In this document: positions 5,036-9,576 of the stretch, one piece after another | Position numbering within the stretch: position 1 is the stretch's first letter | Layout of the letters: every line of letters starts with the position of its first letter | Translations under genes and position numbers: made by a program | From: Rhodothermales bacterium | GTDB lineage: Bacteria > Bacteroidota > Rhodothermia > Rhodothermales > Bin80 | Length of the DNA: 64,000 nt | Direction: 5' to 3' | Assembly (NCBI GenBank): GCA_958296045.1 | Contig: CATQHT010000003.1 | Span: 569,246-633,245, forward strand | The notes under the pieces: model-generated | The model's input: only the letters and a program-made list of their open reading frames with translations | Database searches by the model: none | Told to the model about the DNA's origin: nothing

Positions 5036-6433
5036 ATGCTGCAGGAACAGAGTCGTCTATTTCAGCAGCTGCTTTTCGCGGCGGACATGGTGCTGACTGG
5101 TGTCTGCTGGGTAGCGGCGTACTACCTGCGTTTCGAGGTGCTGGCATCGTGGCCGCTGCCGTTGCCTGAATGGCTGCCCGTAGGGCGTTACCTAGCCTTC
5201 TTACCGTGGATACTTATTGTGGCCGCGATCGTGTTCTGGGCCAGCGGCTTATATGTACCTGACCGTGCCCAGCGCCTGACGCGTCTGGTGCTAAGCGTAG
5301 GCAAGGCGGTCGGAATCGCTCTGATCGTGCTGATGGCATTTCTCTCCCTGTACCGGGACTTTTATGTGTCGCGCTTAACGATCATCGTTTTCGCCTGCCT
5401 AACGCCGGTGCTAATGATGGCGCTCCGCATGCTCCTGTACCTCTTTGTGCGCCGGGCGCGGCATCAGGGCAGATATCTACGGCGGGTTCTTATCGTAGGT
5501 GCCGGTGTCACGGGTCGCCGTTTGGAGCAGAGTTTTGCGGCCTATCCCTGGATGGGGATGTCGGTGGTGGGCTTTGTCGATGACCACAAGGTTGGCGAGC
5601 CTGGGGTACTGGGCACCACCGCCGATGTCGTGCGCCTCGTTGATCAAGCCGAAAGGCCCATCGACTACGTCTATATCGCGCTACCGCTCACGGCAGCGCG
5701 CCGCATCGAGGCGCTTCTGGAGGAGCTTTCAACGCGGCTGGTCCATGTCTGCCTAGTGCCGGACTTGTTGCAGCATGACATCATCAACAGCCGCATCAGC
5801 GAGGTCGATGGCATGCCGATCCTGCACCTTATAGATGAGGCGCCCATTGATTTCCGGCGCGTCATGAAGCGGGTGTCTGATGTGGTGTTCTCTCTCTTGG
5901 TGCTTCTGGTGACATCGCCATTGCTGGTGGTCATCGCAGCGGCTGTTCGGTTTACTTCACCGGGCCCGGCGTTATACCGGCAGGAGCGTATGAGCCTAAA
6001 CGGGCACCGCTTCATGATGCTGAAGTTTCGATCGATGCCTGAGGGCATCGAGAAGGGCTCGGGTGCGGTATGGGCTAAGGAGGGGGAGGATCGGGCCACG
6101 CCATTGGGCCGGCTGCTCCGCCGGACATCGCTGGACGAGCTGCCGCAGTTTCTCAATGTGCTCAAAGGAGACATGTCTGTGGTGGGTCCTCGCCCGGAGC
6201 GGCCCGTCTTTATTGATCAGTTTAAGGGGTATGTGCCGCGATACATGCTTCGCCACAAGATGAAGGCTGGCATCACGGGTTGGGCGCAGGTCAATGGTTG
6301 GCGCGGCAACACCTCGCTCAAGAAACGTATTCAGTACGACTTGTACTACATCCAGAACTGGTCGCTGGCGTTGGACCTGAAGATTGTAGTACTGACCATC
6401 TGGAAGGGGTTCGTGCATCGCAACGCGTACTGA
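5036..6433 (+). CDS. Undecaprenyl-phosphate sugar phosphotransferase (WcaJ type)
   Basis: A 465-residue membrane enzyme that starts glycan assembly by moving a sugar-1-phosphate from a UDP-sugar to undecaprenyl phosphate. Four hydrophobic segments occupy residues 10-140. A Rossmann-like domain follows (RRVLIVGAGVTGRR onwards), then another membrane helix (285-310) and the C-terminal catalytic domain with KFRSMPEG (near 330), LDELPQF (near 366), VGPRPERP (near 383) and KAGITGWAQVNGWRGNT. This is the standard WcaJ layout and length; glucose phosphate is the usual substrate. With the fused glycosyltransferase at the window start it suggests that an exopolysaccharide locus begins upstream. A strong hairpin terminator follows. 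Confidence 0.92.
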   Translation: MLQEQSRLFQQLLFAADMVLTGVCWVAAYYLRFEVLASWPLPLPEWLPVGRYLAFLPWILIVAAIVFWASGLYVPDRAQRLTRLVLSVGKAVGIALIVLMAFLSLYRDFYVSRLTIIVFACLTPVLMMALRMLLYLFVRRARHQGRYLRRVLIVGAGVTGRRLEQSFAAYPWMGMSVVGFVDDHKVGEPGVLGTTADVVRLVDQAERPIDYVYIALPLTAARRIEALLEELSTRLVHVCLVPDLLQHDIINSRISEVDGMPILHLIDEAPIDFRRVMKRVSDVVFSLLVLLVTSPLLVVIAAAVRFTSPGPALYRQERMSLNGHRFMMLKFRSMPEGIEKGSGAVWAKEGEDRATPLGRLLRRTSLDELPQFLNVLKGDMSVVGPRPERPVFIDQFKGYVPRYMLRHKMKAGITGWAQVNGWRGNTSLKKRIQYDLYYIQNWSLALDLKIVVLTIWKGFVHRNAY

Positions 6434-6442
6434 GCGGATATG

Positions 6443-6470
6443 GGACGCACCTGGAAGTGCGTCCGTCTTT
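6443..6470 (+). terminator. Rho-independent-type terminator after the sugar phosphotransferase
   Basis: A perfect 8-bp inverted repeat, GGACGCAC and GTGCGTCC, with the 6-base loop CTGGAA, begins 9 bases after the stop codon and is followed by a short GTCTTT run. Position and shape fit an intrinsic terminator, although the T-tract is weak. Confidence 0.65.
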
Positions 6471-7026
6471 CGCTGCGGTGTGCAGCCTCCCCAAGGCGCC
6501 TATGCCACTGGCACGGTTATGGCACCGCATGGTGACGTAAGCAGGCACGCCAGAGCGGTTCCGACTCTGGCCCAGGTCCAGACTTTAGCCGCGCACAAGG
6601 CTCACCGAGAAAACCAGATGCGCGATCCCCTGCACCTCTCCATCATCATGGCTGAAAAAATCACTCTAGAATGGTGGCCCGATTATGGTCGGAGCACGCC
6701 CCTGGCCAGATACCCTGCTTTTGGCGCGAATAGATGCAGCAGGACGTGTTCGGTGCCACGATTTATGACACACCATTTAGCTCCGAAGCGCAACGCCTAC
6801 AGAGCAAGTCTGTGTGCTTGTAGGTGGGCGGAAGATAGTGAGGGACTGCGTCAAGCGCTCTAGGACCGGCCACCGTGGCCAATCTATTCCACCCACTACT
6901 GGACGGAAATAGGTGCCTCTGCCCCTGGAGGGTGGTCGTCGTGTGCTCATATAGCGTCCAGCAGCTGTTGGTCCGTGTATGGCTACGATTATTTCGCCTC
7001 GTACGGCTTCAGCTTTGCGTGTACGT
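6471..7026. other. Intergenic stretch without recognised gene
   Basis: About 550 bases between the terminator and the convergent PIN gene. A plus-strand frame of 127 codons (6480-6863) is open, but I recognise no domain and see no plausible ribosome binding site, so I do not call it. The composition is less even than in flanking genes, which fits old, decayed sequence at the edge of an acquired two-gene module. Confidence 0.4.
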
Positions 7027-7500
7027 CTATGGACGGCTACCCTTTCGACACAAGTCACGCGTCCCAAGCAGTCGTTTACGAGCCTTGTCATCACCTAATC
7101 CAGTGGGATATATTTTGCCGCGCGGGTTATCAACGAGCGCCTTGTTCTTAAAATCCGCATGTAAGTCTCTATCGCTGGAGTACAGAAGGCGGGCGCCACT
7201 TAACTGTGCTAAGGCAATTATGTGCCAGTCGTTTGACCTGCACAAATTCTCGTGTTTTAGTCGTACCGTCCGTTGACTGAGTTGACTCTGATTTTCAGTT
7301 TTTAGCTTACCGGCAAGCCCGGCCTGTTGGGCCCATTGTTGATACTTCTGGGAGCTCTTGGCAAGCTCTTGCGTCAGTTGGCCGCCTGTAACCAAACGCC
7401 CATTTGGCGAGTTTAGCCACTGCAAGAACTGCTTACCTGCCTTTGACTTACCCTCGCCAAACACTTGATCGCGAGCATTGGCGTCAAGAATTGCACACAT
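7027..7500 (-). CDS. PIN-domain ribonuclease-like protein
   Basis: A 157-residue protein with a complete set of PIN acidic residues: Asp6 (AILDAN), Glu45 (TQELAK), Asp91 (SNDWHIIALA) and Asp110/Asp112 (YSSDRDL). PIN proteins are Mg-dependent RNases, commonly toxins of VapBC-type modules. There is no small antitoxin-like gene beside it. Instead the gene starts 3 bases after the stop of an AAA ATPase gene (TGA GCC ATG), so the two are probably translated together. The C-terminal 35 residues are basic. Function in growth arrest or anti-phage defence is inferred from the pairing, not shown. Confidence 0.75.
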   Translation of the reverse strand: MCAILDANARDQVFGEGKSKAGKQFLQWLNSPNGRLVTGGQLTQELAKSSQKYQQWAQQAGLAGKLKTENQSQLSQRTVRLKHENLCRSNDWHIIALAQLSGARLLYSSDRDLHADFKNKALVDNPRGKIYPTGLGDDKARKRLLGTRDLCRKGSRP

Positions 7501-7503
7501 GGC

Positions 7504-8847
7504 TCACAGGTTGAGAGACCTCGTTACCTCCTCCATGAAAAACTTGCGATAGTTATCTGGGGCGCGAACATTTCCCTCCTCGTCCAGACGAATCGCGTGG
7601 ATTTGGACATCAAGCTCGCGTCGATCAAAGAAAAGGATGGAGACATCACTGGGATTCAATGCCGTCTTGCGGTCGCGAACATCCATGCGGATGCGATCTA
7701 GCAGGTGATCACTGTGTGTCTCAATGACTAGCTGACGCTTGCCGCCAGCCAATCTACAAAACAGCGTCCCCAGAGCAGCCTGTGCGCTAGGGTGGAGGTG
7801 CACTTCGGGCTGCTGAAACAGGTACATTCTGGAGAAATTGTGGCGGTACAATTCAACTAACACCGGCAATACCTGACTGACGCCGTATCCCATGTCAATC
7901 AGATTGCGATGGGGGCCCTTCAACTTCTTACCGAACTTTCTGACCTCCACCTGGAATGGACCACTCGTCGCTTCCCCCCACGCCTTTATCGAGACCTCGT
8001 CGAATAGCCCAGAGGCATCCCCAAATGCTTCTAAGTTCTCCTTCAGTTCGGCCCATGCTTCTTTACCTTCTCTGTACATGTGGGCGAGATACAGGGGCAC
8101 ATAGTCCCCTTCAGGGTCAGGTGTGGCGCGACCTGGGTCATAAGTTCGGCGTGGTTTGGAGCGTACGGGCGCGCTTGCGAACGGCCAATACCCTCCTGAG
8201 CGAATGGAATAACGCGACTGCACGAGGTACCAGTGCTCATACCAGTCCTCGAGGCTGTACGCCAATGAGCCTGACACTGGTGCAATATCGGGTCGGCTAC
8301 CTTGATTACTAGATTCATGTGTCCAGTTAAAGAGGAGTTTTCCGACAAGATCAAGAATGGATAATGCCGAGTATGCTGTCAGCCAGGGGTAGTCTTCATA
8401 CTGCGCGTCAATCCTCCATTCTCCCCTGTAACTCCCCAGCTGAATCTCAAAACGCTGACTGTCTCGGACTCTGGCCTCGATCCAGGTGCCCTCCTTCTCC
8501 AGACGAACACGCACCGGAACCGGCGCCGCTCCTTGTCTTCCAAAAGTGACTTCAGCATCAAACTTTTCAGTAAGCCTCATCCCTGCTGTGAAGGTCTCGG
8601 CCCGCCCACCTCTGGCCCCGCGGTAGTGAGCGATCTCGTCAAAGCTGCCCAAGTCGAAGGGCTCCCCCTTAAAGTCAGGCTCAGTGCCTCGGCAGATGAC
8701 ATCCCATAGTGCCCGAATCATCGCTAGGAAGGAGGTCTTGCCAGTACTATTTTCTCCGACGAGCAATGTAAGCGGCGCAAGAGGGACCTTCTGTCGTTGG
8801 TGGAAGCACCGATAGTTCTCCAGTGTTAATTCGCTGAATTGATTCAT
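7504..8847 (-). CDS. AAA/ABC-type ATPase (AAA_21-like, SMC-head fold) paired with a PIN nuclease
   Basis: A 447-residue protein opening with FSELTLENYRCF, the usual first strand of RecF/OLD/AAA_21 ATPases, and the Walker A GENSTGKTS (residues 31-39). The C-terminal half has a GYGVSQVLP signature-like motif, a Walker B region LFQQPEVHLHPSAQ (near 345) and the H-loop region ETHSDHLLDR (near 377). A glutamine pair replaces the more usual acidic residue before PEVHLH. No TOPRIM or nuclease domain is fused. The PIN gene starts 3 bases downstream, so this ATPase probably regulates or loads that RNase, by analogy with other ATPase-nuclease defence pairs. It is flanked by long gene-poor DNA on the PIN side, which fits acquisition by transfer. 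Confidence 0.8.
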   Translation of the reverse strand: MNQFSELTLENYRCFHQRQKVPLAPLTLLVGENSTGKTSFLAMIRALWDVICRGTEPDFKGEPFDLGSFDEIAHYRGARGGRAETFTAGMRLTEKFDAEVTFGRQGAAPVPVRVRLEKEGTWIEARVRDSQRFEIQLGSYRGEWRIDAQYEDYPWLTAYSALSILDLVGKLLFNWTHESSNQGSRPDIAPVSGSLAYSLEDWYEHWYLVQSRYSIRSGGYWPFASAPVRSKPRRTYDPGRATPDPEGDYVPLYLAHMYREGKEAWAELKENLEAFGDASGLFDEVSIKAWGEATSGPFQVEVRKFGKKLKGPHRNLIDMGYGVSQVLPVLVELYRHNFSRMYLFQQPEVHLHPSAQAALGTLFCRLAGGKRQLVIETHSDHLLDRIRMDVRDRKTALNPSDVSILFFDRRELDVQIHAIRLDEEGNVRAPDNYRKFFMEEVTRSLNL

Positions 8848-8952
8848 GTCGTTACCGTTGTGCTACCCAAGATATTCCCAGAGGGGAGTCGCCGTGATGC
8901 CCATGTGCCAGCCCGCGCATGGTCAACCCAATGGACGTGTGTCATTGCGATG

Positions 8953-9576
8953 TCACATGGATCCCAAACCGCTACCCCCCAGCCGGCCCAGCACGAGTTG
9001 ATAGATGTAGTGCTTCCTGCGAAACTCGACACCCTCAAAATGGGGCGAGAATACAGCTTTGAAGGCGCGCCACGACCAGAAATTTACGTGGCCGGGGTCC
9101 TCGCAGTAGCGAAGCGCACGACCGGCATCATTGAGTAGCTTGAAGTGCGGTTCGCGCGGCACCGTCACGATCACATGGTGGCGTGCTACACGCTTCAGCT
9201 CACCCAGCGCCCGCTCCCAGTCCGTTAGATGCTCTAGCACTTCACTGCATACCACCGCATCAAATGAATCGTCATCAAAAGGCAGATCCAGGATGCTTCC
9301 TTGGGAAAAACTGATAGCATGCCCGAAGTGCGTTTGCGCGTAACTCACCGCTTCGCCGCTTAGGTCGATGCCGGTAAGTCGCAATGCAGGGTCACGCGAC
9401 GTCAAGTACGCGGCTACGAACCCCTCCCCGCAACCCGCATCCAACACCGTCTGAGCACCTGACTTGGCCACCATCTCAAAGATGGCCTCATTGAAGCTGT
9501 TCAAGTGCCACCTGGCGATGCGCCCAGTCCTCGTGTGACGCTGCTGGTTGGTGCTCCGGTATGAAGTTGATGTCAT
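8953..9576 (-). CDS. Class I SAM-dependent methyltransferase
   Basis: A 207-residue Rossmann methyltransferase. Motif I is VLDAGCGEG (44-52), followed by LTGIDLSGEAV (acidic end of strand 2), the LPFDDDSFDAVVCSEVLEHL motif of the Methyltransf_11 group, and RHHVIVTVPREPHFKL. The substrate cannot be told; the group includes ubiquinone/menaquinone, sugar and lipid methyltransferases. It lies just upstream, in the transcription sense, of nothing obviously related: the ATPase-PIN pair follows 105 bases later, and the L,D-transpeptidase gene precedes it with a 15-base gap, so those two may share a transcript. Confidence 0.85.
   Translation of the reverse strand: MTSTSYRSTNQQRHTRTGRIARWHLNSFNEAIFEMVAKSGAQTVLDAGCGEGFVAAYLTSRDPALRLTGIDLSGEAVSYAQTHFGHAISFSQGSILDLPFDDDSFDAVVCSEVLEHLTDWERALGELKRVARHHVIVTVPREPHFKLLNDAGRALRYCEDPGHVNFWSWRAFKAVFSPHFEGVEFRRKHYIYQLVLGRLGGSGLGSM

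Follow-up and report, generated by a model that had tools for sequence, protein, structure and literature searches.

What do two closely spaced genes of a Rhodothermales genome, one encoding an SMC/Rad50-head-type ATPase and the other a small PIN-fold protein, do for the cell that carries them? Pairs of an ATPase and a nuclease, such as Septu, PARIS, and Gabija, represent a major layer of bacterial immunity, and an earlier note on the window (herein the whole 64,000-nucleotide stretch of DNA that was analyzed) had taken the two genes for a coupled defense or toxin module. We propose that they form a two-gene anti-phage module of the abortive-infection type, a reading that we consider probable and hold with moderate confidence.

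The two genes are minus-strand open reading frames separated by 3 nt with the PIN gene downstream (Table 1), as the earlier note had described. The ATPase matches the Pfam families AAA_15 (1.1e-20) and AAA_21 (7e-16) and, weakly, DUF3696, and its AlphaFold model (input alignment of 71 rows, pLDDT 90.2) resembles the SMC/Rad50 heads and the PtuA proteins of Septu and retron Ec78 among solved structures, with Z-scores of 18–22 over about 255–303 aligned residues and an rmsd of 3–5. The PIN protein scores 4.8e-4 against PF01850 (PIN), which is sub-threshold by the Pfam cut-off, and 42 of 78 PIN homologues match this family at E ≤ 0.001, the best at 1e-8. Its model (78 rows, pLDDT 92.5), which like that of the ATPase is confident, most resembles VapC toxins (best Z 10.5 over 124 residues, rmsd 3.2), and there are no FEN1/XPG-type chains among the structural matches listed for it. 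The protein hence has the fold together with the conserved acidic cluster of PIN-domain ribonucleases, in which D6, E45, D91, D110, and D116 are kept in 93–98% of copies; the first four had been named previously, while D112, named with them, is not conserved. Also correctly identified were the Walker A, GYGVSQ, and H-loop motifs of the ATPase, which are near invariant among homologues, and the absence of an antitoxin, as the gene upstream of PIN is the ATPase and there is no gene for a VapB-type DNA-binding antitoxin.

Table 1. Coordinates of the ATPase–PIN pair, its conserved residues, and its flanks in the window.
Feature	Position	Strand	Remark
Bacterial sugar transferase, conserved flank, outside the module	5036..6433	plus	Pfam and G002 comparison
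Segment without DNA match in same-family genome G002	6434..8979		Contains the pair and some 590 bp of unassigned DNA (6434-7026)
Putative PIN-fold ribonuclease gene	7027..7500	minus	157 aa; presumed effector
ATPase gene, SMC/Rad50-head-type (OLD/ABC, DUF3696-like)	7504..8847	minus	447 aa; presumed sensor/regulator
SAM-dependent methyltransferase, conserved flank, outside the module	8953..9576	minus	Pfam and G002 comparison
Walker A GENSTGKT, ATPase residues 31-38	8734..8757	minus	G31, G36, K37 invariant
ABC signature-like motif GYGVSQ, ATPase residues 320-325	7873..7890	minus	Alignment
Walker-B position, QQPE not DE, ATPase residues 345-348	7804..7815	minus	Gln in place of both acids throughout the clade
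H-loop His378 (ETHSDH) of the ATPase	7714..7716	minus	Alignment
PIN Asp6	7483..7485	minus	96% conserved
PIN Glu45	7366..7368	minus	96% conserved
PIN Asp91	7228..7230	minus	98% conserved; invariant in two further alignments
PIN Asp110	7171..7173	minus	93% conserved
PIN Asp116	7153..7155	minus	95% conserved

What had been overlooked is the Walker-B position. QQPE is present there in all 95 ATPases in which the motif pattern was found, and almost all copies of the clade have QQ in place of the Walker-B acids; a diverged copy in the same genome (L004) has LLQKPE, and relatives of the HEC-03B type, discussed below, have EQPE or EEPE. In a profile alignment with PDB entries, the second Gln of QQPE aligns with a Gln in the PtuA entries 9nnk and 9nnb, which on our reading are engineered E-to-Q trap mutants, and with a Glu in 9kjx. 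Defense by Septu is lost when the Walker-B Asp is changed (PMC13096335), and hence the Septu ATPase cycle is not simply transferable to a clade that lacks this residue, which may either work differently or represent a binding-only switch. With both acids replaced by Gln, we infer that the switch would be nucleotide binding rather than fast hydrolysis.

The coupling of the two genes, which the earlier note had made dependent on whether homologues of the ATPase usually stand beside a PIN gene, is strongly supported, as a PIN gene is immediately downstream in 94 of 99 homologous loci. These comprise the 80 loci obtained by scanning about 85,000 species genomes with the ATPase, pooled with copies from relatives, and they include some identical sequences found by both searches, so that 99 is not a tally of independent copies. 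The distance from the ATPase stop to the PIN start is mostly −1 to +5 nt, with 3 nt the commonest and a 1-base overlap frequent. Among the five loci that lack PIN, L010 and L066 are contig ends and L014 and L087 have the same sequence, the fifth being L053. A reverse search with PIN gave an ATPase upstream of nearly every match, and the pairing persists to about 30% ATPase identity. The two proteins also diverge together, with a Spearman correlation of 0.535 between their pairwise divergences, whereas none of 2000 permutations exceeded 0.27, and their pairing is far beyond chance. The possibility that PIN is an isolated VapC-type toxin was ruled out on the grounds that its ATPase partner is near-obligate. 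No ATPase–PIN fusions were seen in an unsystematic look, and a single-protein genome scan with PIN gave no matches, probably owing to overly strict patterns.

IMG/VR contains only two relatives, with ATPase identities of 30–32% and both with PIN. One of these distant pairs, on the IMG/VR contig L119 (5935-9873), has a gp3 gene for phage DNA packaging nearby and is probably a prophage-borne copy. No relatives of PIN and no close relatives of the ATPase were found on plasmids or named phages, the ATPase search giving only DUF3696 ATPases that are distant and have different partners. One such ATPase, on a Planktothrix plasmid (L114), adjoins a DNA methylase and two unknown genes, and another, on an Azotobacter plasmid (L115), is near an RNA ligase family gene.

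The best 80 loci span at least 14 phyla and include one Candidatus Synechococcus spongiarum and one Candidatus Entotheonella. The MAG series jk18/p16, SB06xx, CO36xxx, Plut, and OX/OY/CAT may be of sponge origin. A further 18 of the 80 loci have the bin codes APA, CAR, COS, IRC, RHO, and STY, which we infer to be sponge species of PMC8163846, a study reporting lateral transfer in sponge symbionts and an enrichment of their restriction-modification (R-M), CRISPR, and toxin-antitoxin genes. The spread of the pair across phyla is apparently mostly in marine-sponge symbionts, and as the window genome is itself probably from such a symbiont, its nearest relatives may be biased toward that habitat. 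The PIN of the pair was found in 5 of about 890 background genomes from four phyla and the ATPase in 9 of 15 genomes of the same family, the two counts having been obtained with different queries and cut-offs.

That the pair was acquired, as the earlier note had suggested, is supported by comparison with G002, a complete genome of the same family. In G002 the sugar transferase and methyltransferase genes are convergent and about 200 bp apart and the pair is absent, while the DNA similarity between the window and G002 ends at 6433 and restarts at 8980. This empty site fits a gain in the window and a loss in G002 alike, but the two genes have a low GC3 (0.59 and 0.51, versus 0.63–0.73 for their neighbors), which favors gain. 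The unassigned DNA past the PIN stop has no match to any fetched locus or Rfam family and no clear repeat, an Rfam search near the pair gave no retron or other RNA component, terminators and promoters at the pair were not above shuffles, and no repeats or target duplications that would mark a mobile element were found there.

The window genome contains four ATPase–PIN copies, and the other three (two at about 52% identity and the diverged L004) each have PIN directly downstream. Genes found close to copies other than that of the window include IS transposases, the reverse transcriptase of a group II intron, and a serine recombinase. In a quick tree, copy L003 of this genome falls within the Gemmatimonadota, with starred support, and the ATPase tree has 30 changes of phylum, where the minimum possible is 13 and the random mean is 47. 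Genome G013 has copies of the pair that are broken or frameshifted (L026, L027, and L024), as expected for a gene pair with quick turnover. Turnover is supported by these broken copies, the placement of L003, and the four copies in one genome, together with the G002 empty site and the low GC3. In the diverged fourth copy, a ThiF/E1-like gene upstream (L192:6014-7222, G000 C3) abuts the ATPase start, and this locus is possibly a three-gene operon of E1-like protein, ATPase, and PIN.

In about one-fifth of the homologous loci, as judged by inspection and with no background rate for comparison, recognized defense genes are neighbors of the pair. The gene order in L034 is HmaA, HmaB, the pair, and HmaC, with a PDC-S02 gene also upstream, and HmaB- or HmaC-type genes are near the pair in L037, L040, L055, L058, L071, and L077; these assignments are confirmed by HmaB/HmaC profiles in L034, L058, and L071, three neighbors also match HmaB, and the others are by BLAST clustering. 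In two Gammaproteobacteria MAGs (L109 and L111) the pair is located between drmD and drmMI of DISARM, and it adjoins or is near type I R-M genes in L049 and L053, a type IIG gene in L036, a type ISP gene in L090, and Dsr1 in L103. The Hma-type islands of two Rhodothermales MAGs (L037 and L040) each contain two tandem ATPase–PIN pairs, and in L055 (7850-9600) a HEC-01 pair of an ATPase and a DUF4276 protein is situated directly downstream of the ATPase–PIN pair and before HmaC. Counting against a defense reading are the approximately four-fifths of the loci with no defense gene among those recognized, the housekeeping flanks of the window copy, which has no defense neighbors among the genes examined, and the many functions of the superfamily that the ATPase matches in defense libraries. 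Proximity to defense genes, which the earlier note had proposed as a check, is thus seen in a subset of the inspected loci (Hma, DISARM, and R-M), and it is lacking for the window copy.

Of the PADLOC profiles, NsnB is the best match to the ATPase (6.7e-44), with PDC-M55A, HEC-03B (1.6e-28), and AriA (1.5e-22) also among the closest, while none of the PADLOC models matched PIN significantly. HEC-03 (HEC-03A and HEC-03B) has the same layout as the window pair, in that a PIN-like gene directly follows the ATPase. In L147–L157 the HEC-03A proteins, read by motif, carry PIN-like patterns (DTN..E..D..D) and are encoded next to A6-type ATPases, an arrangement that makes HEC-03 a likely sister module. 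While the HEC-03B profile matches the window ATPase, albeit less well than NsnB, HEC-03A fails on the window PIN, with no match at E ≤ 0.5 and matches to 3 of its 78 relatives (best E 0.019). In the literature we found nothing on HEC-03 beyond its status as a computational candidate. A 2026 article that also cites earlier reports (PMC12839542) describes OLD-ABC ATPases with PIN-endoRNases near BREX and regards them as backup effectors, and these pairs have the same two functional parts in defense neighborhoods. They are described in bulk, and the part of that article available to us contains no comparable sequences, sponge clade, embedding in Hma or DISARM, or QQPE motif. The window pair has the adjacency that defines the OLD/ABC-ATPase plus PIN module of the HEC-03 kind, and the version with a PIN effector, which the earlier note had treated as new, is already represented by HEC-03 and by the BREX-linked pairs of PMC12839542. 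The kind is thus known from computation, with the window clade a divergent and unmodeled variant, and we found no literature report of the ATPase–PIN version being tested.

The other related systems differ in the partner. Septu (PtuA–PtuB) and retron Ec78/Eco7 likewise combine an SMC-head ATPase with a small nuclease gene, and PtuA is among the best structural matches of the window ATPase (Z 19–21), but their sequence similarity is limited to the ATP-site motifs and PtuB is an HNH rather than a PIN protein. PARIS (AriA–AriB), in which an OLD/ABC ATPase sensor acts with a separate tRNase effector (PMC12409363), resembles the window pair in this respect and in the AriA profile match, whereas AriB is a TOPRIM protein, and the window pair gives no sign of Ocr-type triggering. 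Menshen supplies the best profile, NsnB, but its components are coupled to DUF262 and OLD/TOPRIM-type proteins (PMC10952713), while the neighbors in the window are PIN, the sugar transferase, and the methyltransferase. VapC shares the PIN fold and catalytic acids, but VapBC has a VapB-type antitoxin where the window PIN has an ATPase. Since the partner types differ, the window pair falls outside Menshen, Septu, PARIS, and VapBC.

In the mechanism that we envisage, the ATP-bound SMC-head ATPase would dimerize or oligomerize and keep the PIN protein restrained until it senses an infection signal, which might be a phage protein, a DNA structure, or an inhibited neighboring restriction system. The triggered ATPase would then activate or free the PIN ribonuclease, and cleavage of host RNA, most likely of specific tRNAs, would halt translation ahead of phage production. 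A two-part system with a nuclease site and a link to defense is supported by the comparisons made here at the level of sequence, while the sensing step, the inhibition and activation of PIN, its RNA target, and the abortive outcome would follow by analogy. The choice of tRNA is a guess from fold and precedent, proposed by analogy with PARIS (PMC12409363) and with Septu, which cleaves tRNA-Tyr (PMC13096335). Support for the module comes from the near-obligate pairing, the folds, the conserved nuclease acids, the correlated divergence, the mobility, and the embedding in defense operons elsewhere.

A toxin-antitoxin (addiction) module without phage sensing, in which PIN is a VapC-like toxin, the ATPase has the antitoxin role, and spread results from the difficulty of losing it, would account for the antitoxin-then-toxin gene order with tiny spacing, the VapC-like fold, and the multiple and broken copies per genome, and toxin-antitoxin genes are enriched in sponge MAGs (PMC8163846). 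We nevertheless consider it unlikely, since no known VapB resembles an SMC-head ATPase of 447 residues whose Walker A, signature, and H-loop motifs are near invariant, the ATPase is kept without PIN in L053 and in the identical L014 and L087, and insertion into both Hma and DISARM operons fits a defense role better. Those same insertions, and the type I R-M genes beside the pair, fit a special form of the anti-phage module, a backup effector of restriction systems following the logic of PrrC and PARIS, in which the ATPase detects anti-restriction proteins or a disabled R-M, Hma, or DISARM neighbor and then fires the PIN RNase. Such a role has been proposed for BREX-linked pairs of an OLD-ABC protein and a nuclease, those with PIN among them (PMC12839542); yet most copies, including that of the window, stand alone and distant from recognized restriction systems, which makes such a dedicated function improbable.

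PIN domains are related to FEN-type nucleases, and the folds closest to that of the ATPase include Rad50 and SMC heads; on these grounds PIN could be a FEN1-like flap or single-strand DNA nuclease loaded by an SMC-like ATPase for the destruction of plasmid or phage DNA or for DNA repair. This seems very unlikely, as the best solved matches of the PIN model are RNA-cutting VapC toxins and the ATPase is without the Walker-B acids of Rad50-like cycling enzymes. An ordinary housekeeping pair for RNA processing, with no role in conflict, would be in keeping with its intact state in diverse genomes and with the housekeeping flanks in the window, but hardly with its rarity in the background and patchiness in its own family, the empty site in a relative, and its cargo-like placement in defense operons, and we give this explanation almost no credence.

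Returning to the anti-phage module, we suggest tentatively, as a doubtful but possible extension, that the clade is a distinct ATPase–PIN immune system in which the QQ-containing ATPase without Walker-B acids would be an ATP-bound latch and not a motor, shared as a community immune gene across at least 14 phyla, chiefly in the marine-sponge holobiont, and also plugged into Hma and DISARM operons, where it would cut RNA as a second line of defense. The most surprising points are the spread over at least 14 phyla, apparently mainly in sponge microbiomes, and the missing Walker-B acids. The latter question the need for ATP hydrolysis in ATPase-plus-nuclease systems, and with its compact size of 1.8 kb and its numerous natural variants, the cassette of this clade lends itself to testing. 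Its distribution over many phyla, apparently within sponge microbiomes, represents a testable case of the exchange of immune genes at the level of a community.
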